Part shown: piece after piece, positions 44,680 through 64,000 of the stretch | Layout: each line of letters starts with the position of its first letter | Position numbering within the stretch: position 1 is the stretch's first letter | NCBI GenBank assembly: GCA_025352145.1 | Contig: JANXTY010000016.1 | Span: forward strand, 1 to 64,000 | Reading direction: 5' to 3' | Origin: Oxalobacteraceae bacterium | GTDB taxonomy: Bacteria > Pseudomonadota > Gammaproteobacteria > Burkholderiales > Burkholderiaceae_D | DNA length: 64,000 bases | Notes under the pieces: model-generated | What the model was told of the DNA's origin: nothing | The model's input: only the letters and a program-made list of their open reading frames with translations | Database searches by the model: none | Position numbers and translations under genes: made by a program

Positions 44680-44894
44680 TGCCAGGTGTAACATCATCGC
44701 TGTTTCAATGGCAAGATCGGCATAGAGAGCCTGACGCCCCAAGCGTCATTTGCCGTTTGTCGCTCGCCCCATCATTCGCTACAGCCTCATTCGAGTTGGC
44801 GCGTCAGAAATTTGGGGATATCAACAAGCAAAAGAAGGCCTAGCCCCTGTTACTCACCGCACACAATGCTATTAAAACAGAAGAGAACTAACCC

Positions 44895-47814: not shown

Positions 47815-48914
47815 TCAAGTTTCTTGACCTTGCGGCACAGTATCGTTCAATCAAGTCAGAAATTGATTGTGCAATACAAAATGTAATTCGTGATTCTGCA
47901 TTTATTGGCGGTAAGTATGTCCAAGAGTTTGAAAAACATTTTGCTGACCATGTAGGCGCTAAACATTGCTTAGGTGTTGGCAATGGTACCGACGCACTAG
48001 AGATTGCAATAGAGGCGGCACAACTTCCCGCAGGAAGCGAAATAATTGTCCCTGGCAACAGCTTCATTGCCAGTTCAGAGGCGGTTACAAGGTGTGGACA
48101 CAAAGTTGTTTTTGCTGACGTAGACGAAGGTTGCTATACGCTTACTCCTGAATCTGTTCGGAGTCATCTCACACCCTGCACCAAGGCGGTTGTGGCCGTT
48201 CATCTTTATGGACACCCTTGCGATATGGATCCTCTGATGGATCTAGCTCGTGAATATGGTCTATCAATTATTGAAGATTGCGCGCAGGCGCATGGTGCTG
48301 AATACAAGGGTCATCGTGTTGGTGGCATTGGACATATTGCCGCGTTTAGTTTTTATCCGGGAAAAAATCTCGGTGCCTATGGCGACGCAGGCGCAATTAC
48401 AACGCAGGATGATGACTTGGCAAAGCGCTGCAGGATGATTGCCAATCACGGGCGAATCGCCAAGTACGACCATGAATTTGAGGGGCGTAACTCTCGGCTG
48501 GACGGCCTACAAGCAGCCGTGTTAAGTGTGAAATTGCGGCATCTCGATTCATGGACAGATCATCGTATTGCTGCTGCAGAACAGTATCTCGCTGGCCTTG
48601 CTGGAGTTGGCGATCTTGTACTGCCAGTGCGTCAGGAATGGGCGAAGCAGGTCTATCACCTTTTTGTCATTCGAACCGATTTCCGCGACCAATTAAAAAG
48701 CTTCCTCGGTGATCAAGGTATCGAAGCAGGGGTTCACTACCCCATTGCCCTTCCTAAGCTCAATGCCTACCAGTACCTTGGGGTGCCAGACTTGAGCGCT
48801 TCCTACAATTGTGCGGATGCCAAGTTGCTCAGCCTGCCAATCGGTGAGCATGTTATGCCGGAAGATGTTTCGTTTGTTGTCGATCAGGTCCGTCGGTTCT
48901 TCCAACGTAACTGA
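47811..48914 (+). CDS. DegT/DnrJ/EryC1-family sugar aminotransferase (WbpE-like)
   Basis: A 367-residue PLP-dependent aminotransferase acting on a 3-keto (or 4-keto) nucleotide sugar with glutamate as donor. It begins MIKFLDLAAQYRSIK, contains GVGNGTDALEIAIEA, VHLYGHPCDM, IEDCAQAHGAEY and the PLP Lys in SFYPGKNLGAYGDAG. C-terminal GVHYPIALPKLNAY is normal. It overlaps the acetyltransferase (ATGA) and completes the oxidoreductase-acetyltransferase-aminotransferase trio, so the product is probably a 3-acetamido sugar for the polysaccharide. Confidence 0.9.
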   Translation: MIKFLDLAAQYRSIKSEIDCAIQNVIRDSAFIGGKYVQEFEKHFADHVGAKHCLGVGNGTDALEIAIEAAQLPAGSEIIVPGNSFIASSEAVTRCGHKVVFADVDEGCYTLTPESVRSHLTPCTKAVVAVHLYGHPCDMDPLMDLAREYGLSIIEDCAQAHGAEYKGHRVGGIGHIAAFSFYPGKNLGAYGDAGAITTQDDDLAKRCRMIANHGRIAKYDHEFEGRNSRLDGLQAAVLSVKLRHLDSWTDHRIAAAEQYLAGLAGVGDLVLPVRQEWAKQVYHLFVIRTDFRDQLKSFLGDQGIEAGVHYPIALPKLNAYQYLGVPDLSASYNCADAKLLSLPIGEHVMPEDVSFVVDQVRRFFQRN

Positions 48915-48977
48915 TACGCCACCCCGAAAAATTTGACTCAGAACGTCACAACATTCAACTATTACTGGGACATCAAG

Positions 48978-49685
48978 ATGATCTATATCGGCAAAAAACC
49001 AAAACAATACTACAAAAACATCTTAATGATGGTCGATCTCGGTATGCACGAACAGATTTTTGCTGAGCTATCGCAGCTGGTTCCTGTGGGCGCGACAATC
49101 CTCGATTTGGGTTGCGGGGAGGGGGCTCTTTCACAGCGACTGGTCGACAATGGATACAAGGTTTACTCGGTCGACAAGAACTCAGGGTACTTTAAGTGTG
49201 TAGGGTCGACCTTCATTGAGGTTGACTTTGATAAGCAGGGGGAGCTCAACGCTTTTATCGCGAAGCATGAGGAATCGTTCGATGCAGTGATCGGTATCGA
49301 GGTAATCGAGCATGTGGAGAACCAGTGGGAGTACATTCGGGGACTCAAGCGGATGTGCAAGACCGGCGGACACCTATTTGTTAGTACTCCCAATACTCAG
49401 TCATGGCTGAGTCGTCTACAGTTCCTTCGGACTGGAAGGTTCCACCAGTTTTCGGACCCTGATCTCGAGTATGGGCACATTTCGCCAGTGACGTTGTGGG
49501 AACTCGACGTAATACTGAAAGCATCAGGGTTATCCAAGATTAAGTCGATTGGGGTAGGCACGCTTCCTCCTTTGTACTTTACATCAGTCAAAACTATCAT
49601 TGCCAGCTTGATCGGGCTGCTGCTACGTCCATTTATGAATGGCCAGGTCGATGACTGGTGTGTCCTGTCTATATGTCGCAAATGA
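48978..49685 (+). CDS. SAM-dependent class I methyltransferase
   Basis: A 235-residue methyltransferase with SAM motif ILDLGCGEGALSQRL, motif II VYSVDKN, and the acidic motif FDAVIGIEVIEHVENQWEYIRGLKRM typical of UbiG/COQ3-like methyltransferases. ATG 48978 (GGGAC upstream) is preferred; a TTG at 48933 would add 15 residues. A C-terminal hydrophobic segment (SVKTIIASLIGLLLRPFM) may attach it to the membrane. In this context it could methylate a sugar or the growing chain; the acceptor is unknown. Confidence 0.83.
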   Translation: MIYIGKKPKQYYKNILMMVDLGMHEQIFAELSQLVPVGATILDLGCGEGALSQRLVDNGYKVYSVDKNSGYFKCVGSTFIEVDFDKQGELNAFIAKHEESFDAVIGIEVIEHVENQWEYIRGLKRMCKTGGHLFVSTPNTQSWLSRLQFLRTGRFHQFSDPDLEYGHISPVTLWELDVILKASGLSKIKSIGVGTLPPLYFTSVKTIIASLIGLLLRPFMNGQVDDWCVLSICRK

Positions 49686-50938
49686 AACAAATCTTTGTCA
49701 TCCCTTCGTGGTATCCCTCGAAGGATGATCCGGTATCTGGCATATTCGTGAAGAAGCAGGCCGAGGCTTTTTGTCAATATTCTGCGCAGTACATGCCCAT
49801 CGTTGGCTTGTGGGGTCAGTGTGACGAGAACATTCCACTAAATCACCCGAAACGCATTCCATCCTGGCTTCGTGACTATACCAGGCGACCGCAAGGTCAA
49901 TGGACTACCGAGAACGGCGTGGAGGTCGTGTCTGACCGCGTGATTTCCTGGTCACACAGACTGCCTTTCGGTGGGGCAGCTCGGCTGCTAGCCGTGACCC
50001 GCCGGAACATTCAACGGGCAATCCAACGGTTTGGTCAGATCGATTTGCTGCATGCTTATGTCTCGTATCCAGCAGGCTTTGTTGCGAGCCAAATGTCTCG
50101 AGAATTTGGCATCCCATATGTAATAACTGAGTTCATGGGGCCTTTCCCTTTCCTTGCGCACCAGCAGAAAAACGGAGAGCCGCGCACGGAAATTCGGCAA
50201 GCAATCCAAGGCAGTGCCTGCACGATCGTGTTGAGTGAATACCTGCGATGCAGATTTTCCGAACTATTACTGCCCGAGCCGACTGTTATCCCGTTTTCTG
50301 TTGATCACTCCCGTTTCTCGCCGCAGACGCGTACGCCCGACGGTATAGTTCGCATGGTCTGCTGTTGTCGACTGGTCGCGGAGAAAGGCGTATTTGAATT
50401 GATCATGAGTTTTTCGCACGCGCTGGAAACGCATCGAACGCTGCGTCTAACCTTGATTGGCAGCGGTCCGGACGAAACCGCACTGCGTGCACATGCCCGT
50501 CAATTCGGCGTTTATGAGCTGATCGATTGGAAGGGGCAGCTTGAAAACGACGCTGTTGCGGACATCATGGCCGGGTCGGATTTTTTCGTGCTACCAAGTC
50601 ACTTCGACACCTTTGGCGTGGTCTACATTGAGGCCATGGCTTGCGGACTCCCGATAATTGCCACTCGATGTGGCGGGCCGGATGGATTCATCCATGAAGC
50701 GCAAGGCATCCTTGTTGAGGTCAAGAATACCGCACAACTGACGGCGGCGATGTGTCAGATGGTCGAAGATTATGCGAACTATGATCGTCATGGGATCCGC
50801 GCTTATTCCGAAGGTTGCTTCGCAGACGCCATGGTCGTTGATTCAGTATCGAAGGTATATGACCGTGTCTTGAATATGGGTTCTAGTGTGCGTCAGCTAA
50901 AAGATAACCGGCACGAAATCAAGGCGAGGAATTTCTGA
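49682..50938 (+). CDS. Glycosyltransferase family 4 protein
   Basis: A 418-residue GT-B-fold glycosyltransferase. ATG 49682 overlaps the methyltransferase stop (ATGA). The N-terminal acceptor half starts IFVIPSWYPSKDDPVSGIFV, and the C-terminal donor half has VCCCRLVAEKGVFELI, LIGSGPDE and the E-x7-E region SHFDTFGVVYIEAMACGLPIIAT that binds the sugar nucleotide. It is cytoplasmic or peripheral and adds one sugar to the lipid-linked repeat unit. Its donor is unknown. It overlaps the next gene by one base. Confidence 0.9.
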   Translation: MKQIFVIPSWYPSKDDPVSGIFVKKQAEAFCQYSAQYMPIVGLWGQCDENIPLNHPKRIPSWLRDYTRRPQGQWTTENGVEVVSDRVISWSHRLPFGGAARLLAVTRRNIQRAIQRFGQIDLLHAYVSYPAGFVASQMSREFGIPYVITEFMGPFPFLAHQQKNGEPRTEIRQAIQGSACTIVLSEYLRCRFSELLLPEPTVIPFSVDHSRFSPQTRTPDGIVRMVCCCRLVAEKGVFELIMSFSHALETHRTLRLTLIGSGPDETALRAHARQFGVYELIDWKGQLENDAVADIMAGSDFFVLPSHFDTFGVVYIEAMACGLPIIATRCGGPDGFIHEAQGILVEVKNTAQLTAAMCQMVEDYANYDRHGIRAYSEGCFADAMVVDSVSKVYDRVLNMGSSVRQLKDNRHEIKARNF

Positions 50939-52956
50939 TGTGCGGTGTCTCCGGCTTCGTCTCCACAAACCCGCGCCCCGCGTTTCCGATACTTGGTATG
51001 ACCGACATCATCCGGCATCGTGGACCTGACGATGAGGGATTTGCGCTATTTAATAATGGCAGACAGGCACCTCTGTTGCTCGGGAATGGTGACTACATCG
51101 CTCGCTACTCAAGAAGCAGCTTGCCGTATGCTCCGTCTGCCTCAAAGGTGGAGGCACTTACAAATTCAGCCACCGTGGCGCTGGGACATCGGCGCCTAGC
51201 AATCGTTGACCTCTCAATCGCAGGGCATCAGCCGATGTGCGGCGCAGACGAACGATACTGGATCGTCTTCAACGGAGAAATATACAACCACGAAGCGCTA
51301 AGACATGATCTGGAGGACGTCGGTTATCAGTTTCGCTCAGGATCAGACACCGAGGTAATCCTCGCGGCATACGTGCATTGGGGTCGCGATTGTCTTTCCC
51401 GGCTGAACGGGATGTGGGCGTTTGCGATTTTTGATGTCCAGAACCAGGAACTATTTTTATCGCGAGACCGTTTCGGTATTAAACCGCTGTATTACTGGGT
51501 AGCGCCCGATGGTACGTTCTGCTTTGCATCTGAAATTAAACAGTTCACTCAATTTCCTGGGTGGGCGGCACACCTGAATGCAGAGCGGGCGTATGACTTC
51601 CTTGCTTGGGGCTTGACCGATCACACCGACGAAACGTTGTTCTCGCAGGTCTATCAATTGCGGCCAGGCCATTTGATGGTGCTTAATGTAGGCGGTTTTG
51701 TACCCGACAAGACCGGGCGTTTGCCGGTCACAAGGTGGTATGAACTGAGGCCACGGGAATTTGCCGGCTCCTATGAACAGGCTGCAGCCGAGTTCAAGGA
51801 GCGGTTGACGAATTCGGTCGGTCTGGAGCTACATGCTGATGTCCCAGTGGGTTCGTGTCTTTCTGGTGGTCTCGATTCTTCCTCCATTGTTTGCATTATC
51901 AATGGCCTGCTTAAGACGCAAGGTACCGTCGATTTGCAGAGAACTTTCTCAGCTGTTTCCGATGTGGCGCGTTTCGACGAGAGCAATTGGATATCAGCCG
52001 TCGTCGACGCAGTCCAAGTCAGGGATTATTATGTTGAGCCCCCACTCGACCACCTTTTCGACGAAATTACATCAATCACTTGGCACCAAGACGAGCCATT
52101 CGGTTCGACTAGCGTCTATGCACAATGGAACGTGTTCCGGCTCGCCGCCGAGAATGATGTAAAGGTTATGCTTGACGGTCAAGGGGCTGACGAGCAGTTG
52201 GCTGGATACCATGGCTACTTTGGCCCGCGGTTTGCGGGACTACTTCGTTCCGGTCGATTAAGGGAGCTATGGAAGGAGATGCAAGCTGTCAAGAGTCTCC
52301 ATGGTTACTCCGAACTGCGGTCGCTTATGTACATTGGCAATGTAATGCTTCCACATCGAATTAAGCAGAGATTACGGGCCCTAAATAACCGAAATCATGA
52401 CAGCCCCTCATGGCTAGATATTCAGAAGCTCGGCGTGTCCCCGAGCGACCCATTGCATCAACTCGGCAACTATTCGACCAACATCCGGTCAATGTCTGCC
52501 GCACAGTTGACAGCGACCAATTTGCAGATGCTCCTGCACTGGGAAGATCGCGATTCGATGGCACATTCAATCGAAGCTCGCGTACCTTTTCTGGATCATG
52601 AGCTCGTGGAGTTCGTTTTGGGGTTGCCTGATGAGTTCAAACTCCATCGGGCTGTAACAAAGCGGGTGCAACGCACGGCGATGAGTGGCATTCTCCCAGA
52701 TCGAATACGTGATCGTTTCGACAAAATGGGATTCGTAACGCCCGAAGAGACTTGGATGCTGGAACGAGCGCCGGAAATTTTCCGGCAGAGGCTCCAAACC
52801 GCAGTCGAAACTTCGCGAGGAATTCTGAACTCGAATGCCGTTGAGCTTTTTGATAACATGCTGACAGGTAAAGCAAAGTTCTCGTTTGCACCATGGAGGA
52901 TGATCAGTTTCGGCGAGTGGATGCGTAGTTTTCAAGTCGAGGTGACGCCGAGATGA
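50938..52956 (+). CDS. Asparagine-synthase-type glutamine amidotransferase (AsnB family)
   Basis: A 672-residue protein with the class-II glutaminase domain (catalytic Cys2 in MCGVSGFV, RHRGPDDEG, FNGEIYNHEAL) and the ATP-dependent synthetase domain (PPi loop LSGGLDSSSIV, later GQGADEQLAGYHGYF). It is about 110 residues longer than E. coli AsnB. Enzymes of this family inside polysaccharide loci usually amidate the carboxyl of a uronic acid on the glycan rather than make asparagine. Here Ugd and the C5-epimerase-domain protein supply uronic acids, which fits. It is coupled to both neighbours by start/stop overlaps. Confidence 0.9.
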   Translation: MCGVSGFVSTNPRPAFPILGMTDIIRHRGPDDEGFALFNNGRQAPLLLGNGDYIARYSRSSLPYAPSASKVEALTNSATVALGHRRLAIVDLSIAGHQPMCGADERYWIVFNGEIYNHEALRHDLEDVGYQFRSGSDTEVILAAYVHWGRDCLSRLNGMWAFAIFDVQNQELFLSRDRFGIKPLYYWVAPDGTFCFASEIKQFTQFPGWAAHLNAERAYDFLAWGLTDHTDETLFSQVYQLRPGHLMVLNVGGFVPDKTGRLPVTRWYELRPREFAGSYEQAAAEFKERLTNSVGLELHADVPVGSCLSGGLDSSSIVCIINGLLKTQGTVDLQRTFSAVSDVARFDESNWISAVVDAVQVRDYYVEPPLDHLFDEITSITWHQDEPFGSTSVYAQWNVFRLAAENDVKVMLDGQGADEQLAGYHGYFGPRFAGLLRSGRLRELWKEMQAVKSLHGYSELRSLMYIGNVMLPHRIKQRLRALNNRNHDSPSWLDIQKLGVSPSDPLHQLGNYSTNIRSMSAAQLTATNLQMLLHWEDRDSMAHSIEARVPFLDHELVEFVLGLPDEFKLHRAVTKRVQRTAMSGILPDRIRDRFDKMGFVTPEETWMLERAPEIFRQRLQTAVETSRGILNSNAVELFDNMLTGKAKFSFAPWRMISFGEWMRSFQVEVTPR

Positions 52957-55178
52957 CAAACAAAAATACGGTGCCAGAGATCTGGTTCCTAAACACAGAG
53001 CTTGAGGGCGAGCGCGCAGGGGGATTCAGGCAGGAGCGTTGGTGCAGGGTATTCCTTGACAGTGGCTTCCGCATCCGTATTTTCAACTTGCGAGGTGCCT
53101 TTCGCAGGACAGAATTCGAATGCGGCACGGTTGACGCATTTGACGCATTTCGTCGGCGTTGCCGCGCGAATGCACCCGCTGTTGCTTCGCTGCGTGAAGG
53201 CGTGGGTAGCCGCCTTGGTAGAACGATAAAGCATTATCTCCTAATTGACTTGTACCTACCGAACGTCGTCGGGCTCTTTCTTCGTGTTTTGCATCTTCTT
53301 CGGCAGCACCCAGCCCCAGTCCTCATCATGGCATCGTCGCCTCCGTTTTCTATTGCGTTGGTGGGGGCGCTGTTGAAATGGAAGTATCCAAAAAAACTTT
53401 GGCTAACCATCGATATGCGTGACGCTTGGGCATTGCACAACGCTCTAGGCGGCTTCAAGTGGTTGAGGCGGTTCATTGAAAGAAAAGTGCTTCGGCGCGC
53501 GGATCATATTATTACGGTGTCGCGGTGGCTAGCGAACGAATTCGGTCAGGCGCAGGGTATCGTGGTGAAGGTCATGTACAACGTTGCGACGCATTACTTT
53601 GGCATAACAACTGAGCAACCTAAGATTAATTGGGCGGGTATCAGCAACGACATCGATACGGGTCGCATCAAGATAATTTACACAGGAAGCACGCCGCGTG
53701 GTCACTATGATATAGCCACATTTGTTGGTGCCGTGGCGCTACTTAGGGCCGAGCGCGCGGACTTGGCGGACCGGGTCCAGTTTATTTTTGTCGGTGCCTG
53801 CTCAGAAGTTGCACGTGAGGTGACAGCGCAGGCGATTCACCCAAAGGACATAGTCTTCGTCGGCCATCTGCCGCACCAACTTGTCAGGTCGGTGCAGGCG
53901 GCAGCTGACCTGCTACTATTTTTCGCCCATTTTGGGGAGGGTAACAAAGGAGTCGTGTCGACGAAATTGTTTGAGTACATTTGCCTCGGACAACCTTTGT
54001 TGCCAATTTCGCTTCACGCCGGATCCGATGTCGACCAATTGTTACAACGTTTTTGCACTAGCAGTATCTGTGTTCACGGCGTTGCCGACATGGCAGCTGT
54101 TTTTACGGAGGTTGCGACGTCCGGAGTGTCCAGTATGCCTCGTCTTAAGCAGCCAGACCGTACTGCAGAGCTCTTAGACGACTATGTCCGGTATGCGCAA
54201 GAACAGCGTGCCGCCTACAGCACATATTTCAGTGCGAGTGGACGGGCATTGCGTGGACAAATAGAGCCTGGGATTTCCCCGATGGGTTGCGTAGCCGTTT
54301 GTCTGGCAGCTTACAACGGCGTTAGATGGATCGACGAGCAGCTCAATTCGATCCTTGGTCAGACCGATGTAGCACTAACGGTATTCGTGAGTGTTGACCG
54401 CTCAGATGACGGCACCGAGGCGCTTGTCGATCATCGTGCATCCACTGACCCTCGCCTTGTGGTGCTTCCACATGGTGAACGCTATGGAAGCGCGGCGCAA
54501 AATTTCTTTCGCCTGCTACGCGACGTCGATTTCACCCCATTCAGTCACGTTTGTTTTGCAGACCAAGACGATATTTGGCATATCAACAAGCTTAGTCATG
54601 CGATAGCAGTTATGCAGCACCAGTGTGCAGACGCCGTGTCGACAAATGTTACCGCTTTCTGGCCAGATGGTCGCGAACTGCTAATTCGCAAGGATCAGGC
54701 GGTGGGCAGGTGGAACCACCTGTTCGAGTCTGCAGGTCCAGGTTGTACCTACGTCTTTACCGCAATTATTGCGCGCGAATTGGGTGCTGCACTGCGGGCT
54801 TTGCCACAAAGTAGTATTCAGGCAATAGCGCTTCACGACTGGCTGGTGTTTGCGTGGGTGCGCGCGCATGGTGGAAGTTGGTGGATCGACGCGACGAGCA
54901 CAGTGTGGTATAGACAGCATGCCTCTAATGAGTTCGGTGCGAATCAAGGCGTCGCTGCAGCGATGTCACGATGGCAGCGGCTAACTGGTGGTTGGTACCG
55001 GGATCAAGTGTTGGCAATAGCTACCTTTGTCGGTCAGTGTAGATCCGAGCCGATTCAGTGTCTCCAGCGATTGAATGTTGCAGACCGCTTGGCTCTGCTT
55101 ACATTCGTCCCGCAGTTGCGGCGTCGTTGGCGCGATCGTTTTTTTCTTGCAGTTGCCTTCCTTCTAATGCAAAACTAG
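52953..55178 (+). CDS. Bifunctional glycosyltransferase: GT4-type domain fused to GT2 domain
   Basis: A 741-residue fusion. Residues 1-430 form a GT-B (GT4-like) transferase with WFLNTELEGERAGGFRQER, LTIDMRDAW, IIYTGSTPRGHYD and the donor-site region KGVVSTKLFEYICLGQPLLPIS. From about residue 445 a GT-A (GT2) domain begins: VAVCLAAYNGVRWIDEQL, SVDRSDDGTEALV, and FADQDDIWH with the DxD-like metal motif, the pattern of rhamnosyl-/galactosyltransferases. One polypeptide would add two sugars in sequence to the repeat unit. There is no stop or frameshift at the join. It overlaps asnB by four bases. Confidence 0.88.
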   Translation: MTNKNTVPEIWFLNTELEGERAGGFRQERWCRVFLDSGFRIRIFNLRGAFRRTEFECGTVDAFDAFRRRCRANAPAVASLREGVGSRLGRTIKHYLLIDLYLPNVVGLFLRVLHLLRQHPAPVLIMASSPPFSIALVGALLKWKYPKKLWLTIDMRDAWALHNALGGFKWLRRFIERKVLRRADHIITVSRWLANEFGQAQGIVVKVMYNVATHYFGITTEQPKINWAGISNDIDTGRIKIIYTGSTPRGHYDIATFVGAVALLRAERADLADRVQFIFVGACSEVAREVTAQAIHPKDIVFVGHLPHQLVRSVQAAADLLLFFAHFGEGNKGVVSTKLFEYICLGQPLLPISLHAGSDVDQLLQRFCTSSICVHGVADMAAVFTEVATSGVSSMPRLKQPDRTAELLDDYVRYAQEQRAAYSTYFSASGRALRGQIEPGISPMGCVAVCLAAYNGVRWIDEQLNSILGQTDVALTVFVSVDRSDDGTEALVDHRASTDPRLVVLPHGERYGSAAQNFFRLLRDVDFTPFSHVCFADQDDIWHINKLSHAIAVMQHQCADAVSTNVTAFWPDGRELLIRKDQAVGRWNHLFESAGPGCTYVFTAIIARELGAALRALPQSSIQAIALHDWLVFAWVRAHGGSWWIDATSTVWYRQHASNEFGANQGVAAAMSRWQRLTGGWYRDQVLAIATFVGQCRSEPIQCLQRLNVADRLALLTFVPQLRRRWRDRFFLAVAFLLMQN

Positions 55179-55804
55179 GCACGTTTAAATTAATGATTTC
55201 CTTTGCCATGACTAATATGTACATTCCGATAAAATGGTTCCCGCTCGTGCATTTGCCGACTTCTACTGGAATTTACTGTGATAATCATTTCGTCAAACCT
55301 TCAACTCCTGCCATTGAGAACACATATTTAAGACGGATTATGCATTAGCGGGGATTCTGGTCTTGAAGGTAACTACACCATCGGGATATGATGTTTTTCG
55401 AATTTATGTTTTCAAACCGTTCTGCGGGGAATAGTTTGCCTCTTAATTACCACCTTGCTATTTTAGTCAATAGAAAGGAGCATCTTGCAAAAGTAATTTG
55501 ACCTCTTTAAAAATATCCTCCTGCCTGAGGTGGTGCATTTTGACCCGCATGGTCCCAAACAGGTCAAAATTGCTCACCGCCTCATTCGATGCGATTGGGA
55601 GGAATGGCGAATTTTATGTTCATCGAAGCATGGTTAATTTTGATGGAAATTCACTAAAACAGGCCAGTTTTGAAGTTTTTTCACCATATTTTTAGAAAAA
55701 TAGTTGTGCAAGAGGCTTTATATTAATGGCATTTTGTCATTTTTAAGAGAGTCAAGTTTAAAATCACCTTTTGCATATGCAGAATGATATCTATATAGCA
55801 ATTT
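55179..55804. other. AT-rich non-coding gap inside the polysaccharide locus with an inverted repeat
   Basis: A 626-base break in an otherwise tightly overlapping operon. I find no protein-like frame. An imperfect inverted repeat of about 20 bases (arms 55526-55545 and 55562-55584, centre TTTTGACC / GGTCAAAA) could fold into a hairpin. The rest is AT-rich, like old inserted or decayed sequence. It probably contains a promoter for the wzx-to-transferase half. No transposase is recognisable. Confidence 0.45.
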
Positions 55805-57085
55805 ATGTCATCGCCCATTCTCAGTACTTTTTCTTTGAAGTTTGCATCCGCACTAGCTTCGTTTGCGTTACTTGGTATGACAACTCATTTCCTAGGCGCG
55901 TCGGGACGGGGGGTGATCAGCATCGTGGTCACATCGATCGGTTTAGTGGGAATGGTTAGTGGTTTCGTTGGAGGGGCTGCGCTTGTCTATTTACTGTCGC
56001 GAAACAGAGATAGAGTCTACGCCAGTCAAATCACGGCATTTGCTTACGTATGGGCACTGGCATCCAGTGCAATCGTGACTACAGGCATCCATCTGTTGGG
56101 GTCTGTTGGCTTGGACTATTCGATCCATAGTTTTTTCCTTGGCGGGCTCGCTTCTATGATCGCCATCAATTCCGTGATCGTCTTGAGTGCTGGCAACCTT
56201 TTTCTTTACAACGCAGTCAACCTGATCCAGTCAGCATCTTGTTTAGTGTTTTTCTTCGCAACATCTGTTGGCGAAGGTGGAACAAGTGTAAGGATGTACG
56301 TGTTCTCCCTGTACGGAGCGTACATAGTCTGTTTTGCGTTGACGTCTGCTAAGGTTTTAATCTTCCTTCGTGGACTACGGGAAACTGATGCGAAACCACG
56401 ACTCTTATCCACGTTAGGTACACTCTTGAAGTTTGGTGGACTTGCCCAACTCAGCAACCTTCTGCTTTACATCAGTTATCGCCTGAGCTACTACGTCTTG
56501 GGCCTGCACAGTGGACCATCGATGGTCGGAATCTTTTCAGTTGCTATGATTATTTCAGAGTCTCTTTGGATGATCTCTGGTAGTTTCGCAATTGTTCTTT
56601 ACGCCGCTGCCGCAAGGGAATCCAACAGTGCCGAATTGGTGAGTCGGACCCTTAACTACGTGAAAATTTGCGGCATTGTGAGCCTTTTTGCTGTGGGAAC
56701 GCTAATTTGTACGCCATCTAGCGTGTTCGCAGCGATCTTCGGAGCTGAATTTGGAGAGGTCAAAAATACGATTGCAGCGCTGTCGATTGCGATGGTTAGC
56801 ACCAGCGTGAGTACGATCATAAATCACTATTTTGCCGGCTTGGGACTGTACGCCACTAACGCTAAAGTTGCGTTTGTAGGTTTTTTAGTCTCTGTTGCGG
56901 GCAATTTGCTACTGGTGCCTACATTTGGATTGATTGGTGCCGGGCTAACTGCCAGTGCCGCTAATCTGCTGGTAGCCGTTTGGCTAGTCCACGTGTTCAT
57001 GCATCACAATGGCCTAAAGCTTCGCGCCTTTGCGTTACATGGTATAGATATTCAAGCTCTAGCCTCATTAGTCGGCCGGCGCTAA
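55805..57085 (+). CDS. Polysaccharide flippase (Wzx-like)
   Basis: A 426-residue inner-membrane protein with about twelve hydrophobic helices, of the MATE/MOP superfamily polysaccharide transporters. It starts SSPILSTFSLKFASALASFALLGM, contains GASGRGVISIV (family-type first loop), and ends VPTFGLIGAGLTASAANLLVAVWLV, a usual Wzx ending. It moves the lipid-linked repeat unit to the periplasmic face for polymerisation by Wzy. Wzx proteins are poorly conserved, so the assignment rests on topology and context. No strong ribosome-binding site precedes the ATG. Confidence 0.85.
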   Translation: MSSPILSTFSLKFASALASFALLGMTTHFLGASGRGVISIVVTSIGLVGMVSGFVGGAALVYLLSRNRDRVYASQITAFAYVWALASSAIVTTGIHLLGSVGLDYSIHSFFLGGLASMIAINSVIVLSAGNLFLYNAVNLIQSASCLVFFFATSVGEGGTSVRMYVFSLYGAYIVCFALTSAKVLIFLRGLRETDAKPRLLSTLGTLLKFGGLAQLSNLLLYISYRLSYYVLGLHSGPSMVGIFSVAMIISESLWMISGSFAIVLYAAAARESNSAELVSRTLNYVKICGIVSLFAVGTLICTPSSVFAAIFGAEFGEVKNTIAALSIAMVSTSVSTIINHYFAGLGLYATNAKVAFVGFLVSVAGNLLLVPTFGLIGAGLTASAANLLVAVWLVHVFMHHNGLKLRAFALHGIDIQALASLVGRR

Positions 57086-57112
57086 TGCCATCAAACCTTA
57101 AACGCACAACTC

Positions 57113-58078
57113 ATGATTCCTAAATTGTCGAAAACTTACTATATCAACTTCAGCTCGGATGGACAGAAGATTGGTGCGGGTCAACTCGGCCCTAGCGACG
57201 AAGATGGCATTCCAATGGTTAACTATAATGAACGCTATCGTACTGCGGGTTTGCGGCATGAGAATAATGTGCCGTTTGGCGTACATTACACTCCCGTGAC
57301 GATCTCAATCTACGCATTCAGCCTGCTCCAAGGCATTGTTGACGGCAATGCCGCAACTGATTCGCACCAAGACAGGTTCTTCCAGCTAGTTGATTGGCTT
57401 GTACGCACGATTGTTCCGATATCGCCCGAGGCTGGTGTGTGGCAGCACTCGTTTCAAATTCCGTTTTCCGCTGGACTCTCGCCTCCGTACGCATCTGGAA
57501 TTGCGCAGGCGCAGGCGATCTCTCTACTGCTTCGTGCTTACCAACTTAGGGCTGACGATAGGTATCTCGCTGTTGCCCACCAAGCTTTTGGTGCCTTTCT
57601 TGTGGACATCGACGATGGCGGCGTCAGGTGTATAGAGGGAGGCTTAACGTGGATCGAGGAATGGCCATCGAAACCACGAAGCCATGTGCTCAACGGTTTT
57701 ATGTTTGCTCTCCTTGCCATCTACGACTACAAGAAATTCTTCGGCACGGACGCAGGAACCGAATTATGGGTGGAGGGTCTGCGGACCCTGACGCACAACA
57801 TTGAGTTCTTCGACAGTAGTTATGGTTCTAGGTATGATTTGCTACGTGGCTTAGTCGTTAGCGAAACCTACCATCAACTGCACATAAAATTACTCCGGGA
57901 ACTGTACCAGTTGAGCGGGGAAGACGCGCTCCTTGAAGTCGCTGAACGGTGGGACAGCTATTTGCTGAGGGATAGTTCCTTTAAAAGACGCTCTCTAGCA
58001 TTTTGCGAAAACATGCTCCACAACCCTGAATATCGAGCTTGCAAGTTTAGGCAAATAATACGCCGCTTTGGATGCTAG
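57113..58078 (+). CDS. D-glucuronyl C5-epimerase C-terminal-domain protein
   Basis: A 321-residue protein matching the catalytic (C-terminal) domain of heparan-sulfate D-glucuronyl C5-epimerase. Signatures: GVWQHSFQIPFSAGLSPPYASGIAQAQAIS, then WIEEWPSKPRSHVLNGFMFALLAIYDY near residue 180, GSRYDL and SETYHQLHIKLLRELY. Several Tyr residues in these blocks correspond in position to the catalytic tyrosines of the family. It has no signal peptide or membrane helix, so the place of action is unclear. It would invert glucuronate to iduronate in the polymer or repeat unit, consistent with Ugd in the same locus. Placed between flippase and polymerase. Confidence 0.85.
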   Translation: MIPKLSKTYYINFSSDGQKIGAGQLGPSDEDGIPMVNYNERYRTAGLRHENNVPFGVHYTPVTISIYAFSLLQGIVDGNAATDSHQDRFFQLVDWLVRTIVPISPEAGVWQHSFQIPFSAGLSPPYASGIAQAQAISLLLRAYQLRADDRYLAVAHQAFGAFLVDIDDGGVRCIEGGLTWIEEWPSKPRSHVLNGFMFALLAIYDYKKFFGTDAGTELWVEGLRTLTHNIEFFDSSYGSRYDLLRGLVVSETYHQLHIKLLRELYQLSGEDALLEVAERWDSYLLRDSSFKRRSLAFCENMLHNPEYRACKFRQIIRRFGC

Positions 58079-58085
58079 TAAAACC

Positions 58086-59288
58086 ATGAATGGCAGACAT
58101 CTTTTTATAAATCCGCTAGTAGTGTTTCTGGGTACATGGGGCGTGGTTTTCTATTTGTACAACTTATGTCTTTCTGATGTCCTTTCGCCGCTGTCGGATC
58201 AATTTGTTTACGCCGCCGTCGGACTGATGATATTTTCAGCGTGCTGTTTTTTTGTTGGCGCCATTATCCCCAGCCGAGGACATAAGCCCACGATACCGAT
58301 CGACGAACTAAGCAAGGTAAGCCTAATAAAGACGGTCCATCGTCTGTTTTTAATCATGGTCGGTCTGTTTGTAGTTACTGTCGTCACCTATCAGGGCTTT
58401 CCTCTTCTGTGGATTATTTTGGGTGATGCGAGGACCTATACGGAGTTTGGATTCCCGACTATTCACGGTTTTTTCAATTCACTCTTACTAATTACAGGGA
58501 CTATCGCCTTCTGGTTGCTTCTAAATAATCAGTCCAAGGATGGGAGTAAGATAATTTTGGCATTCTGTATTATTGTGCCAATCATTACTCTGCATAGGCA
58601 GTCTATGGTTAGTCTGCTTCTCCAGTGCCTCTTCATATTTGCAGCAGTACGCCACGGAAGTGCTATTCAGTCTGCACGCGGTGTTGTCATCTTTTTGCTT
58701 ACGTGTAGTGCTTTGTTCGCCGTACTTGGCAACATCCGTACAGGAGACGAAGCTCTCGCTGGGCAAGCCAGCCTGTTGGGCGCTGGGCAAGAGTTACCGC
58801 TTCCTGTCCTATGGCTTTATATGTACCTAACAACGCCGTTGAGCAATTTTTATGACCTGACAATAATGAGTTTTGAACCAACCTATGGGGGATCTTCACT
58901 GGCCGGTTTAACACCAACGGTGGTTCGCCAGGTACTATGGGGAGAACCTTCACAAGTCATGGATTACTTTTCAGAACGGACGTTTAACTCGTCCTCATAT
59001 GCCTTTATACTTTTTCTGGATTTCGGATGGCGTGGCGTGTACTTTTTTACGGGTTGCGTTATCGGATACGGAGGAGTTCTGTACAACCGGTTTGTTCGGT
59101 ACCCCACGCTTTACAACTTGCTAAATTTGAGTATTCTGAACCATGTGGTGTTTCTTTTTGTTTTTGCAAATTTTATGTTGACCTGGGGGATACTATTTCA
59201 GTTCGTGATTGTGAGATTGTTGCGCCGCAAGCTTATGCGGATTGGCGGGACTCCGAAACTATTGAAATCGTCGGTGCCGGGCTGCTAG
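58086..59288 (+). CDS. Oligosaccharide repeat-unit polymerase (Wzy-like)
   Basis: A 400-residue inner-membrane protein with about ten to eleven hydrophobic helices and a larger periplasmic loop near residues 250-310 (LTTPLSNFYDLTIMSF, GLTPTVVRQVLWGEPSQ). Motifs such as GFPLLWIILGDARTYTEFGFPTIHG and HRQSMVSLLLQ match oligosaccharide repeat-unit polymerases. It joins repeat units on the periplasmic face using the flippase product. ATG 58086 is preferred; a TTG at 58068 lies inside the preceding gene. Wzy proteins diverge strongly, so context supports the call. Confidence 0.83.
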   Translation: MNGRHLFINPLVVFLGTWGVVFYLYNLCLSDVLSPLSDQFVYAAVGLMIFSACCFFVGAIIPSRGHKPTIPIDELSKVSLIKTVHRLFLIMVGLFVVTVVTYQGFPLLWIILGDARTYTEFGFPTIHGFFNSLLLITGTIAFWLLLNNQSKDGSKIILAFCIIVPIITLHRQSMVSLLLQCLFIFAAVRHGSAIQSARGVVIFLLTCSALFAVLGNIRTGDEALAGQASLLGAGQELPLPVLWLYMYLTTPLSNFYDLTIMSFEPTYGGSSLAGLTPTVVRQVLWGEPSQVMDYFSERTFNSSSYAFILFLDFGWRGVYFFTGCVIGYGGVLYNRFVRYPTLYNLLNLSILNHVVFLFVFANFMLTWGILFQFVIVRLLRRKLMRIGGTPKLLKSSVPGC

Positions 59289-59346
59289 TTGCGCAGTTGA
59301 TCTATTTAGGTGAGTCGACTTTATATGTAGCGCAGGTAGCAACGCG

Positions 59347-60282
59347 ATGAACCTTTTAATCACTGGGGCTACCGGCTTTGTAGGGCAGGCAGTCTGCGCA
59401 CAAGCCTGCGCTGCAGGCATGATAGTGCGCGGAGCTACGCGTAGCGCTGCGGTGCTGCCCAATGGGATACAGGCCTATACCTTCTCCAACTTAGATGGGA
59501 ATACCCCATGGGGCGAGGGGCTGGCGGGCTGTAGCGCCGTGGTGCACTTGGCTGCCCGGGTGCACGTGATGGCCGATGTTGCAGCCGATCCACTGGCGGA
59601 GTTCCGGCGAGTCAACGTAGAGGGCACACTCAACCTAGCCGGTCAAGCGGCGGCAGCCGGCGTGCGCCGTTTTGTGTTTGTCAGCTCTATTGGCGTCAAT
59701 GGCGTCGAGACTTGCCGGCGGCCGTTTACCGCGCATGATGAAGTTGCGCCACATTCGCCCTACGCCGTATCAAAATTCGAGGCCGAGCTGGGTTTGCGCG
59801 CCTTGGCCGCTGAAACGGGTATGGAAGTGGTGACCATTCGCCCTCCTCTGGTCTATGGGCCAAGTGCTCCTGGCAATTTTGGTTTATTGATGCGCTGGCT
59901 CAAATATGGTGTGCCCTTGCCGCTGGGTGCCATTCATAACCAGCGTAGTCTAGTAGGGCTGGACAATCTGGTCGATTTGATCTTGACTTGCCTTACGCAT
60001 CCTGCTGCCGCCAATCAGACCTTTCTGGTGTCCGACGGCGAAGATGTTTCCACCACCGAGCTGCTTCGCCGTATGGGCCAGGCCATGGGCCGCCCGACGC
60101 GTTTGATTCCTGTGCCCGCTAACTGGCTGAAACTGGTGGCAGCCATGGTGGGTAAGCCCGATATGGCACAGCGCCTGTGCGGCACGTTTCAGGTCGATAT
60201 TGAAAAAACCCGGAGCTTGCTGGGCTGGGCGCCGCCGCTGTCGCTGGACGAGGGCTTGAAGAAGGTAGCAGGAGGAATATGA
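59347..60282 (+). CDS. NAD-dependent epimerase/dehydratase family sugar-nucleotide reductase or epimerase (SDR)
   Basis: A 311-residue extended SDR. Rossmann motif ITGATGFVGQAV, VVHLAARVHVM, catalytic Ser in FVSSIGVNG and YxxxK in SPYAVSKFEAE, then RPPLVYGPSAPGNF. Enzymes of this build paired with a small PglC-like transferase commonly reduce the 4-keto group made by a WbpM-type dehydratase, giving UDP-FucNAc- or QuiNAc-type sugars. That dehydratase is encoded 760 bases away on the other strand, so this trio likely makes and transfers the first sugar. It overlaps the transferase by four bases. Confidence 0.87.
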   Translation: MNLLITGATGFVGQAVCAQACAAGMIVRGATRSAAVLPNGIQAYTFSNLDGNTPWGEGLAGCSAVVHLAARVHVMADVAADPLAEFRRVNVEGTLNLAGQAAAAGVRRFVFVSSIGVNGVETCRRPFTAHDEVAPHSPYAVSKFEAELGLRALAAETGMEVVTIRPPLVYGPSAPGNFGLLMRWLKYGVPLPLGAIHNQRSLVGLDNLVDLILTCLTHPAAANQTFLVSDGEDVSTTELLRRMGQAMGRPTRLIPVPANWLKLVAAMVGKPDMAQRLCGTFQVDIEKTRSLLGWAPPLSLDEGLKKVAGGI

Positions 60283-60845
60283 GTTGGAAGCGAATATTTG
60301 ATCTATTACTGGTTTTGGCTGCAGCTGTGATTTTGACGATTCCAGTTTTACTGGCGGCAGTGGCGATACGACTGACTTCTCCAGGACCAGTGCTGTATTG
60401 GTCAGACCGCGTTGGGCGGCACAACAAGCTATTCAAGATGCCCAAGTTTCGCAGCATGCGGATGGGCACACCCGCCGTAGCTACGCATTTGTTGGTCGAT
60501 CCCAAGGCGCATCTCACGCCGGTTGGTAGTTTTTTGCGCAAGAGTAGCCTGGACGAGTTGCCGCAACTTTGGAGCATTCTGGTTGGCGACATGAGTTTTG
60601 TGGGGCCGCGTCCAGCGCTGTTTAACCAGCACGACTTGATTGGGCTGCGTACCCAGTACGGCGTGCATGAGCTGGTGCCCGGACTGACCGGTTGGGCGCA
60701 AATAAACGGGCGCGATGAGTTGCCGATCCCTGACAAGGTCAAGTTGGATGCAGAGTATCTGCATTGCCAGTCGCTGGCGTTTGACAATCGTATTTTGTGG
60801 CTGACCTTTGTCAAGGTGCTGCGACGAGATGGGGTGTCGCATTGA
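60279..60845 (+). CDS. Undecaprenyl-phosphate sugar-1-phosphate transferase (PglC-like initiating enzyme)
   Basis: A 188-residue small monotopic phosphoglycosyl transferase that starts the repeat unit by placing a sugar-1-phosphate on undecaprenyl phosphate. One N-terminal re-entrant hydrophobic helix (IFDLLLVLAAAVILTIPVLLAAVAI), then RVGRHNKLFKMPKFRSM, the catalytic Asp-Glu pair in KSSLDELPQLWSIL, DMSFVGPRPAL and PGLTGWAQINGRDELP. It is the short form lacking the extra N-terminal helices of WcaJ/WbaP. Last rightward gene of the locus. Confidence 0.93.
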   Translation: MSWKRIFDLLLVLAAAVILTIPVLLAAVAIRLTSPGPVLYWSDRVGRHNKLFKMPKFRSMRMGTPAVATHLLVDPKAHLTPVGSFLRKSSLDELPQLWSILVGDMSFVGPRPALFNQHDLIGLRTQYGVHELVPGLTGWAQINGRDELPIPDKVKLDAEYLHCQSLAFDNRILWLTFVKVLRRDGVSH

Positions 60846-60912
60846 CGATCGGATGATTTATTGGTTTTTTTTGAAAAATTTTCCCGCAGCCTCACGTCTT
60901 GCCAAAAGACTA

Positions 60913-60932
60913 GGCAGCACCTTGGTGCTGCC
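60913..60932. terminator. Strong hairpin between convergent transferase and dehydratase genes
   Basis: GGCAGCACC and GGTGCTGCC form a perfect nine-base stem with a two-base formal loop, in the 195-base gap between convergent genes. A T-run does not directly follow on either strand, so it may be an imperfect bidirectional terminator. Confidence 0.5.
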
Positions 60933-61040
60933 ATAGACCCATCGACTTTATAAACGAAGCCATGGGCGTCCGTTATGCAAACTCAAAGTGCGCACCACTA
61001 CCGTTCAACATAAATTAAAAAGCTTCCAGGGGCGCTCACG

Positions 61041-62975
61041 TTATCTAATTTGTTCTTCCTTGGGAAAATTTTTAGTCATTTTCTCTTGCCACACAAAATC
61101 AACAATTTCAGAAGACGGGTGATACCCATTAATCATTTTAAGTAACTGAGTGCGGATTGCTTCATGGTCGCAGCGTTCACATGCGTCATCAAGTTGGTTC
61201 AACATAATTTTTAAAAATGGCCATTCGATCGCTGCTTCTTGGGCGCGCATGATGAGTGGGTGTTCCGTGCCTGTGACGTTGGTTCCAATTAATAACTCTT
61301 CGTATAATTTTTCCCCGGGGCGTAATCCGATGTATTGGATTTCTATGGCGCCGTGAGGGGCATCTGCCGATTTAACTTCATGGCCACTCAAGTGGATCAT
61401 ACGCTCGGCAAGATCGGCAATGCGCATGGGCTTGCCCATGTCTAGGACAAATACATCGCCACCCTTCCCCATGGACCCTGCTTGAAGCACTAACTGGGCT
61501 GCCTCGGGGATTGTCATGAAATAGCGCGTAATTTCAGGGTGCGTTAACGTAATTGGGCCGCCCGCTGCAATTTGTTTGCGAAATAAGGGGACAACTGATC
61601 CAGAAGATCCGAGAACGTTGCCAAAGCGAACCATTGAGAAGCAAGTTTTGGAACCCTGCACGGCGAAAGCTTGCAGGATGAGTTCGGACAGGCGTTTCGT
61701 AGCGCCCATGACATTGGTAGGGCGCACTGCTTTGTCCGAGGAAATAAGGACGAAACATTTGACTTCTGCGGCCATTGCGGCGTTGGCAAAATTCAGTGTG
61801 CCGAATGCGTTATTTTGGATGCCTTCGATGGGGTTGCTTTCGACCAGAGGAACGTGCTTATAGGCGGCTGCGTGGTACACGGTGTCGACTGCAAACGTGG
61901 ACAGAACGGCTTTGCATTTTTCGTAATTCAGAACCGATCCAATGCAGGCAATTAGTTCAACTCTCAAGTCTTCGGCAACATTGATGTTTTGTAGTTCCTG
62001 TTCAATCGTATAGAGTGAGAATTCGGAAATGTCGAACAAAATGAGGCGCTTGGGTTGAAGGGCGATGATTTGACGGCACAGCTCAGAACCGATGGAACCA
62101 CCGGCACCGCTGACCATGATGCATTTGCCATAAATGCAGCTTGATAGTAGTCGCGGATTTGGTTCGACCTGGTCGCGACTGAGTAAGTCTTCGATCTCGA
62201 TCTGGCGCACGTCTTCAGCACGGGCTAGGCCGTTCATTACCGCGGTCATTGGAGGCGGAATTTTGATGGAAATCTTGAGTGGTTCTAATCGATTGATGAT
62301 ACAGCGTTGCTGGCTGCGCGTAAGCGAGGGCATGGCTAGTAGGATGGCGTTGATACGGTATTTCTCTGCTAATTCCGGCAGTCGGTTTGAAGGAAAAACT
62401 TTAATTCCATGAACAGTTGTATGGTGGAGCTGTGGATTGTCGTCGATGAAGAAAGCAGGCCGGTATTGTTGGCCCGCGACTAATTCGGTAACTAAAAGGC
62501 TTCCTGTTTTACCTGCACCATAGATCGCCACTCGCCGGTGGTTTATATCACGTGCACGGAGCAGAAACCCGCGTGCGGCAAAACGGCTTGTGAGTAGATA
62601 CAGGATGGTATTGACCCAGTAAATCCAGAGCGTGGTGGGCGTACACTGTTCCCCTTTTATGATAAAAGAAAATACAGCGAGTACTACGGTCGACAAGGTT
62701 GCAGCCAGTATGACGGTAGAGATTATTTTTTGGTCGATATACCGAATAACTGCACGATATAACCCCAAGCTGATGAAAATTGGAATGGAAGCGGCCGCCG
62801 TTGCTAATGCGAGTAGCCCATATTGGCTTAAAAGATCGAGAGTGAGGCCGCTGAACCGTAGGATCAGTGCAAAATAAAACAAGATGGGCAGACAGCTAAA
62901 ATCAGCGCTGGCTGCGATCATTTGTTTCTTGATGCGAGGTAAATGCAAAAACAGATTTTTCATTGTAACGATCAA
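61041..62975 (-). CDS. WbpM/CapD-like UDP-N-acetylglucosamine 4,6-dehydratase (membrane-anchored)
   Basis: A 644-residue polysaccharide-biosynthesis dehydratase. Four N-terminal membrane helices (residues about 20-140) precede a first nucleotide-binding domain (IYGAGKTGSLLV) and the catalytic SDR domain with VSGAGGSIGSELCRQI near residue 290. The usual catalytic Tyr is replaced by Met in SSDKAVRPTNVMGATKR, the hallmark of the WbpM group. TTG 62975 is taken as start because GGAGGT lies nine bases before it; the ATG at 62963 has no such site. The product, a 4-keto-6-deoxy sugar, would feed the SDR and PglC-like genes opposite. Confidence 0.93.
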   Translation of the reverse strand: MIVTMKNLFLHLPRIKKQMIAASADFSCLPILFYFALILRFSGLTLDLLSQYGLLALATAAASIPIFISLGLYRAVIRYIDQKIISTVILAATLSTVVLAVFSFIIKGEQCTPTTLWIYWVNTILYLLTSRFAARGFLLRARDINHRRVAIYGAGKTGSLLVTELVAGQQYRPAFFIDDNPQLHHTTVHGIKVFPSNRLPELAEKYRINAILLAMPSLTRSQQRCIINRLEPLKISIKIPPPMTAVMNGLARAEDVRQIEIEDLLSRDQVEPNPRLLSSCIYGKCIMVSGAGGSIGSELCRQIIALQPKRLILFDISEFSLYTIEQELQNINVAEDLRVELIACIGSVLNYEKCKAVLSTFAVDTVYHAAAYKHVPLVESNPIEGIQNNAFGTLNFANAAMAAEVKCFVLISSDKAVRPTNVMGATKRLSELILQAFAVQGSKTCFSMVRFGNVLGSSGSVVPLFRKQIAAGGPITLTHPEITRYFMTIPEAAQLVLQAGSMGKGGDVFVLDMGKPMRIADLAERMIHLSGHEVKSADAPHGAIEIQYIGLRPGEKLYEELLIGTNVTGTEHPLIMRAQEAAIEWPFLKIMLNQLDDACERCDHEAIRTQLLKMINGYHPSSEIVDFVWQEKMTKNFPKEEQIR

Positions 62976-63384
62976 AATTAAATTACCTCCGATAAGGCGG
63001 AGTGCTTATTTCTGGGTCTTCAGGAGAGGGATTAAAACAGTTAAGCAAGTTACGTAGGGAAGATGGCCGGCCCTCATTTTTTAAATACTTAGATTTTCTT
63101 GGGTGACACCCAAGCACCGATACGCAATATTCCATCGCTCAGGCGTTTCAGCAAGCATTCAATTTACAGTTGCCAATAACGCACTTCTGCTTCAGCATGG
63201 CATGCTCACGAAAGCAGTACAACTAGCATGATTAAGAGGTTTAACGGCGCAGCGGAGATGTTATGTAACGCATATTTTTCAATATTAGGTTAAGGCTATA
63301 GCATGTTTATTTTCAGGGAAAGTAGAAATTCATTTTTTGTAAGAATTTGTGACATATTTACTTCATAAAATATTTTTTCAAAGT
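62976..63384. other. Intergenic region between ptsI and the dehydratase gene
   Basis: A 409-base gap between two leftward genes. A perfect short inverted repeat, CTTGGGT-GAC-ACCCAAG (63098-63114), could be an operator or weak hairpin; no T-run follows on the minus strand. The part near ptsI (63260-63384) is AT-rich. The promoter of the dehydratase gene must lie here. No gene is recognised. Confidence 0.45.
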
Positions 63385-64000
63385 TTAGAAGCTGCGCAAT
63401 CGTTCTACTCCTAAGGTGATATTGGTTGGTTCAACTGATTTAAGGATGCGCTTGACTTGGGGTTCGATTAGGGTGATATCGCTATTAAGGATTTCCTGTT
63501 TTACCGAGAGCAGCTGCGCAGGGTACATCGAAAATGCGCGTAAACCCATTCCCAATAACAGGCGAGTCAGCTTGGTGTCGCCGGCCATTTCGCCGCAGAC
63601 CGCTACCGGAATGCCGGCTTTTTTCCCGGCATTGATGGTCATCGAAATTAATTGCAAAATAGCCGGATGCAAAGGATTATAGAGATGGGCGACCTCGTGG
63701 TCGACACGATCAATTGCCAAGGTGTATTGGATCAGATCATTAGTACCTATCGATAGAAAATCGACTCGTTTAATGAACATGGGAAGTGCCAAAGCGGCGG
63801 CTGGGATTTCTATCATCGCGCCAATCGGAATCGATGGGGCGAATTTTTTATTGGCTTCACGAAGTTGTGCTTTGGCTTGTTCGATCATCGCCAAGGTTTG
63901 GTCGATTTCAAAGGCATGGGCCATCATCGGGATCAGGAGATGCACCGGCCCGTAGGCAGATGCACGCAAGATTGCCCGGAGCTGGGTCAAAAATAATTGC
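63385..64000 (-). CDS. ptsI: Phosphoenolpyruvate-protein phosphotransferase (enzyme I), 3' part
   Basis: The C-terminal ~204 residues of PTS enzyme I; the gene continues past the right edge of the window, so the N-terminal domain with the phospho-His is not seen. Visible are the PEP-binding barrel segments TQLRAILRASAYG, IGAMIEIPAAAL, the signature DFLSIGTNDLIQYTLAIDR, and the catalytic Cys in VAVCGEMAGD, followed by LLGMGLRAFSM. Enzyme I passes phosphate from PEP to HPr. The Ile of GAMIEIPAA (usually Thr) is a small variation. Confidence 0.93.
   Translation of the reverse strand, partial: QLFLTQLRAILRASAYGPVHLLIPMMAHAFEIDQTLAMIEQAKAQLREANKKFAPSIPIGAMIEIPAAALALPMFIKRVDFLSIGTNDLIQYTLAIDRVDHEVAHLYNPLHPAILQLISMTINAGKKAGIPVAVCGEMAGDTKLTRLLLGMGLRAFSMYPAQLLSVKQEILNSDITLIEPQVKRILKSVEPTNITLGVERLRSF

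Follow-up and report, generated by a model that had tools for sequence, protein, structure and literature searches.

The open reading frame at positions 57113–58078 (+ strand) of the window, i.e., of the whole 64,000-nucleotide stretch of DNA that was analysed, encodes a small uronyl C5-epimerase of the GLCE type, which lies between the flippase and the polymerase gene of a surface-polysaccharide locus. The best reading of its function, to which we give an even chance, is the conversion of glucuronic acid (GlcA) to iduronic acid (IdoA) within the lipid-linked repeat unit. Iduronic acid is rare in bacteria. The gene combination of the locus is unusual, and no described polymer with this gene set was found in the literature searched, which lacked most subscription journals. 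If the epimerase works as proposed, it would represent a small soluble epimerase in a defined bacterial assembly pathway, with a possible use for heparin-like sugars.

The Epimerase Gene and the Wzx/Wzy Block

The reading frame starts with an ATG codon and specifies a product of 321 amino acids, assigned by Pfam, by solved relatives and by a structural model as a single alpha/alpha-barrel domain. Residues 107–282 match PF06662 (C5-epim_C) with an E value of 2.4e-42, and the score of 145 bits lies above the gathering cut-off of 23.3. The solved relatives retrieved by sequence are zebrafish GLCE (4pw2, E 1e-25) and human GLCE (6hzz, E 3.8e-24). On sequence comparison, a likeness to GLCE by chance is excluded. 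The C5-epimerase-domain protein that the original prediction had placed here from the letters alone is thus borne out by the PF06662 match, as well as by the fold match given below. The genome contains one copy of the gene, and the label 'D-glucuronyl C5-epimerase family protein' is already found on public plasmid records.

The epimerase is a single-domain, soluble and helical protein, in which no hydrophobic segment was found, either at the N-terminus or elsewhere (maximum Kyte-Doolittle mean 0.12). Because it contains neither a signal peptide nor a membrane segment, it is most likely cytoplasmic. An N-terminal hydrophobic segment, absent from the window epimerase, is present in 16 of the 58 PF06662 family members examined, so that export or anchoring is probable for some of them.

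The epimerase gene is preceded by a gene for a Wzx-like oligosaccharide flippase with nine hydrophobic segments (55805–57085, +) at a distance of 27 bp and followed by a gene for a Wzy-like repeat-unit polymerase (58068–59288, +). The TTG start of the latter at 58068 overlaps the epimerase stop codon, and an in-frame ATG is located at 58086, 7 bases past that stop. The polymerase matches TIGR04370 with 46.0 bits (cut-off 40). No Pfam or NCBIfam model matched the flippase itself; however, it has relatives in other epimerase loci at E values of 1e-12 to 1e-19, and all three relatives tested pass the PF01943 cut-off (L054 and L044 of this range, and L036, which is more weakly related to the flippase with E 7.8e-6). 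The predicted position between flippase and polymerase genes was therefore confirmed, for the polymerase by TIGR04370 and for the flippase through its PF01943 relatives. With the initiating transferase and the chain-length and export proteins described below, the gene set of a Wzx/Wzy locus is present, the flippase being recognised through its relatives only. The identical order wzx-epimerase-wzy occurs in L015, a distant relative.

Predicted Structure and Active-Site Residues

An AlphaFold2 model of the epimerase, built from 47 aligned family sequences, reached a mean pLDDT of 85.8 and a pTM of 0.87. The model is mostly helical, with few and short strands, and displays the catalytic alpha-barrel fold of GLCE. 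Its best structural match is human GLCE (6hzz_A; Z 31.8, rmsd 2.0 Å over 262 residues, 29% identity), and the next family, cellobiose 2-epimerase, follows at Z 15.9. Foldseek agrees on GLCE (E 2.6e-13). The 262 aligned residues are spread across a 444-residue span of GLCE (169–612), and since only these residues align, the inserted domain and the N-terminal hairpin of GLCE are absent; correspondingly, neither the N-terminal beta-hairpin (dimer) nor the central beta-sandwich domain of the animal enzyme was seen in the model. As judged from the model, the epimerase is the catalytic alpha/alpha-barrel of GLCE and nothing more.

E499, Y500, N510, Y560 and Y578 are listed as the key residues of GLCE (PMC13308652); among these, Y578 is the base and E499 donates the proton (PMC12834895). 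By alignment, their equivalents in the window epimerase are E183, W184, N194, Y241 and Y253, respectively; hence four of the five are retained, with Trp in place of Y500. The earlier statement that the key blocks of GLCE are retained consequently stands for E499, N510, Y560 and Y578 but not for Y500, and the structural comparison of the catalytic tyrosines likewise left two of three in place (Y560 and Y578), the third having been lost to Trp.

We then counted these columns in an alignment of 62 rows, comprising the window epimerase, 59 other prokaryotic sequences and two vertebrate fragments. Before counting, we had removed repeated entries of one gene with different locus ids, L023 with its broken frame and the fragment L076, as well as the weak or odd matches L002, L003, L007, L008, L010, L016 and L019. 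N510 and Y578 are conserved in 62/62, Y560 in 61/62 and E499 in 54/62 sequences, a conservation that is partly built in at the level of motifs, as 54 loci had been found with GW[VTY]S[AG]MAQ and GQA[LIM]S[AVT][LYW][AV]RA. Position 500 varies most among the five: Tyr is not universal in the family and occurs in 45 sequences, followed by Cys (11), Phe (2), Ile (2), Gly (1) and Trp (1, the window epimerase). In the same alignment, the positions of W441, G448 and G518 are also changed in the window epimerase.

Eleven actinomycete members (L046, L048, L055, L059, L060, L062–L066 and L069) all carry Cys at the Tyr500 position, which by sequence is a distinct active-site variant.

Supply of the Uronic Acid and Other Genes of the Locus

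Upstream of the epimerase, the + strand encodes an outer-membrane polysaccharide export protein with Poly_export and SLBB domains (41052–43388), a Wzz/PCP chain-length protein (43480–44679) and a UDP-glucose 6-dehydrogenase (Ugd, 44895–46277), and, beyond the genes for the 3-acetamido sugar considered below, a SAM-dependent methyltransferase (48933–49685), a GT4 glycosyltransferase (49658–50938) and a fused GT4 and GT2 glycosyltransferase (52953–55178). Downstream of the polymerase gene, we found a putative NAD-dependent epimerase/reductase of an amino-sugar precursor (59347–60282, +), the initiating sugar-phosphate transferase (60279–60845, +; PF02397) and, on the − strand, a CapD/WbpM-like nucleotide-sugar 4,6-dehydratase (61041–62975).

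The presence of Ugd in the epimerase locus, as originally proposed, is supported by the match of the 44895 dehydrogenase to the UDP-glucose type (2y0e, E 2e-214). Two nucleotide-sugar dehydrogenases of the genome score above the cut-off, Ugd and one encoded on contig C11, which are 70% identical to each other, and both are of the UDP-glucose type. The search of the genome, whose assembly is 97.5% complete, revealed no UDP-HexNAc 6-dehydrogenase. Because both dehydrogenases are of the UDP-glucose type, UDP-GlcA is the donor of uronic acid that the gene content indicates, and the conversion of GlcA to IdoA is therefore favoured.

Downstream of Ugd, three overlapping genes encode a WlbA-like Gfo/Idh/MocA sugar 3-dehydrogenase (46262–47347, +), a left-handed beta-helix N-acetyltransferase of the WlbB/WbpD type (47326–47814, +) and a DegT/DnrJ-type sugar aminotransferase resembling WbpE and WlbC (47811–48914, +). 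The closest solved chains of the Gfo/Idh protein are 3q2k and 3q2i, which we take to be WlbA (E 3e-96 with 3q2k; 43–45% identity to both), whereas the solved relatives of the acetyltransferase include 3mqg, presumably WlbB, and those of the aminotransferase include WbpE. The polymer probably contains a 3-acetamido sugar made by this trio.

Among 300 genomes of the order, 39 contain matches to the Gfo/Idh protein, and in 35 of these the relatives are about 41–46% identical among the matches listed. Relatives with 77–80% identity were obtained from three other genomes; they form a separate group and adjoin the same kinds of acetyltransferase and aminotransferase genes. A rule by which the WlbA-like enzyme pairs with a UDP-glucose dehydrogenase is not supported, as one of these close relatives has a UDP-HexNAc dehydrogenase nearby and the other two have none in the flanking stretches read.

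An asparagine-synthase-like (AsnB-like) amidotransferase, assigned by family models and possibly of the WbpS type, is encoded at 50938–52956 (+). WbpS is placed in the family eps_aminotran_1 (TIGR03108; PMC7468200). The AsnB-like protein matches this model with 372 bits at a cut-off of 816.9 and scores higher, with 442 bits, against the asparagine synthase model TIGR01536. As the genome has no other PF00733 protein, it could be an ordinary asparagine synthetase, and it may serve asparagine synthesis alongside, or in place of, uronate amidation; the polymer perhaps contains a uronamide. For the predicted combination of a 3-acetamido sugar with amidation, candidate genes are present in the locus, namely the trio and the asparagine-synthase-like amidotransferase.

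The Wbp/Wlb loci of P. aeruginosa and P. gingivalis are described with a WbpS-type amidotransferase (PMC7468200). Like these loci, the window locus unites a 3-dehydrogenase, an aminotransferase, an N-acetyltransferase and an AsnB-like protein; unlike them, it lies in a genome in which no UDP-GlcNAc 6-dehydrogenase was found. With the trio present and this enzyme missing from the search results, we do not assign the Wbp/Wlb pathway to GlcNAc3NAcA. No paper on 3-acetamido-3-deoxyglucuronic acid was found in the literature searched.

Related Epimerase Loci Compared with Other Sugar-Transferase Loci

In nine other epimerase loci the dehydrogenase could be assigned to a subtype by its best-scoring model, only L013 passing an equivalog cut-off (TviB); eight are of the UDP-HexNAc type and one is of the UDP-glucose type. 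Because most subtyped loci carry the UDP-HexNAc type, the substrate of the family need not be GlcA. In L015, the Wzx-epimerase-Wzy block is accompanied by WlbA/B/C-like genes, a UDP-GlcNAc-2-epimerase-type gene and an AsnB-like gene.

In addition, the gene content of 45 epimerase loci was set against that of 31 other sugar-transferase loci from a subset of the same genomes. The controls were chosen by their initiating transferase, which is itself the seventh of the seven features compared, and nine of 40 had been dropped because they contained or overlapped an epimerase locus. With p values uncorrected and loci partly related, WbpE/WlbC-type aminotransferases are commoner in the epimerase loci (21/45 vs 3/31, p 0.0009), and so are UDP-GlcNAc-2-epimerase-type genes (18/45 vs 4/31, p 0.011), an excess that persisted after thinning to 29 loci (p 0.019). 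The frequency of UDP-glucose dehydrogenase does not differ significantly between epimerase and control loci (2/45 vs 3/31). On the gene content of these loci, the comparison suggests that many bacterial GLCE-type members may act on amino-uronic acids.

Three further associations were dropped, namely an enrichment beside the epimerase of UDP-HexNAc dehydrogenase (13/45 vs 4/31, p 0.16) or of WlbA (9/45 vs 2/31, p 0.18), and a joint occurrence of epimerase and AsnB genes (4/45 vs 2/31, p 1.0).

Proposed Function and Alternatives

By analogy with GLCE, Y253 would abstract the proton at C5 of a uronic acid in the undecaprenyl-linked repeat unit and E183 would return a proton from the opposite face. 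The reaction would most likely take place in the cytoplasm, before Wzx flips and Wzy polymerises the unit. Its most likely substrate would be D-glucuronic acid, provided through the Ugd of the locus and converted to L-iduronic acid. Against the conversion of GlcA to IdoA stand the Trp in place of Y500, the changes at W441, G448 and G518, the failure to find a close relative among the sequences searched, the longer chains and the hairpin-dependent dimer with which GLCE itself works, and the UDP-HexNAc-type dehydrogenase in most subtyped loci. Neither an enzyme assay nor a sugar analysis for the source organism was found in the literature.

The UDP-HexNAc-type dehydrogenases of related loci bear on a different substrate. 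The epimerase might invert an N-acetylated or amidated uronic acid (3-acetamido- or 2,3-diacetamido-uronic acid, or a uronamide) to an L-ido or L-gulo amino-uronic acid rather than form plain iduronate. We regard this as the main rival, although on the whole unlikely. It is consistent with the subtypes in eight of the nine loci, one of them above the TviB cut-off, with the abundance of WbpE/WlbC-type aminotransferase and UDP-GlcNAc-2-epimerase-type genes in epimerase loci, and with the WlbA-like dehydrogenase, acetyltransferase, aminotransferase and AsnB-like protein of the window itself. Likewise, the VPS of V. cholerae contains amidated L-GulNAcA, for which a C5 inversion is proposed (PMC3901696). 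However, the genome yielded no UDP-HexNAc-type dehydrogenase, so that UDP-GlcNAcA is not accounted for; moreover, the excesses of UDP-HexNAc dehydrogenase, WlbA and AsnB genes are not significant, and the enrichments that are significant stem from seven features, uncorrected, in partly related loci.

Other doubts concern the site of action and the chemistry. AlgG is periplasmic and epimerises the alginate polymer, and the window epimerase could similarly work on the finished polymer in the periplasm instead of the lipid-linked unit. The hydrophobic N-termini of 16 of the 58 family members and the action of GLCE on polymer would fit such a location, but the absence of any such segment from the window protein makes it improbable. 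The replacement of Y500 and of several other conserved positions, the branch length of 1.69 in the tree and a barrel fold that is common to other enzymes could also indicate that the protein has lost its activity or changed its chemistry, acting as a lyase, a hydrolase or a binding protein on the same barrel. The equivalents of Y578, E499, N510 and Y560 are nevertheless kept, and position 500 tolerates other residues in the family (Tyr in 45/62, Cys in 11/62), which leaves little room for this explanation.

A wider proposal is put forward as speculative, and we consider it rather doubtful as a whole. Small GLCE-type epimerases would constitute a general cytoplasmic tool of Wzx/Wzy pathways in several phyla, acting on lipid-linked repeat units. 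Many of them would invert uronic acids that are amidated or carry acetamido groups, and the C5-epimerases still missing for L-gulo and L-ido amino-uronates would thus be found among them; in the window, UDP-GlcA would be the source of the epimerised residue as well as of a 3-acetamido-3-deoxy-uronic acid. The survey of loci also offers a testable idea on how the L-gulo and L-ido amino-uronic acids of bacterial polymers, so far unexplained, might arise.

Relation to Known C5-Epimerases

GLCE acts on longer chains, as a dimer formed via the beta-hairpin. The human and zebrafish enzymes (EC 5.1.3.12; PDB 6hzz, 6i01, 6i02, 4pw2, 4pxq) share the catalytic alpha-barrel and E499, N510, Y560 and Y578 with the window epimerase, which differs from them in lacking the inserted domain, the dimerisation beta-hairpin and the signal anchor, and in the exchange of Y500 for Trp.

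That bacteria such as Bermanella possess GLCE-type activity, and that prokaryotes carry genes of this kind, is already on record, as cited in PMC13308652 and PMC4432689. The former presents RED65_08024 of Bermanella marisrubri (RED-C5epi) as the only identified bacterial glucuronyl C5-epimerase. RED-C5epi is described as active in vitro on heparin/heparan-type chains, with the mechanism of GLCE assigned by alignment (PMC13308652, PMC4432689, PMC12834895); it is likened here to the window epimerase by its published description only, i.e., as bacterial and GLCE-type. Agl32 of Halobacterium salinarum is depicted as consisting of one helical domain and as forming IdoA on a short lipid-linked oligosaccharide ahead of membrane crossing (PMC13308652). 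According to the same paper, it has none of the catalytic residues of GLCE, whereas the window epimerase has four of five. For the stage of action, Agl32 may thus serve as a precedent, but its active site is a different one.

Distribution of the Epimerase Family

The PF06662 family is present in two of 195 relatives, the own genome counted, in eight of 369 genomes of the class (six above the cut-off) and in three of 398 genomes of the phylum. The motif scan retrieved 54 loci, distributed over Bacillota, Actinomycetota, Pseudomonadota, Bacteroidota, Chloroflexota, archaea and others. No relative was obtained when the window protein was scanned directly against the genome contig and viral contig collections, and its closest relative among the sequences searched is about 35–36% identical. 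In the tree, the window epimerase forms its own long branch (1.69) with no supported partner. The gene seems to be an accessory component of variable surface-sugar loci, with a sporadic occurrence.

The other of the two relatives, the same-family genome G035, contains a 1103-amino-acid frame (L016, 8065–11373) that matches PF06662 partially in two places and lies close to an AsnB-like gene. The copy in a Halothiobacillus MAG (L023, 9959–10910) is split into two frames, while that of L013, a 78% relative, is intact. The vertebrate GLCE fragments group with the Streptosporangiaceae members L047, L051, L053, L056 and L061 (support 95/81), inside the bacterial diversity.

No RNA families were found in the region 44000–64000. 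Between the glycosyltransferase genes and the wzx-epimerase-wzy block lies an AT-rich stretch of 626 bases (55179–55804; 37% GC vs 49% for the window) without a long open reading frame and without a second copy in the genome, which may be a recombination junction.
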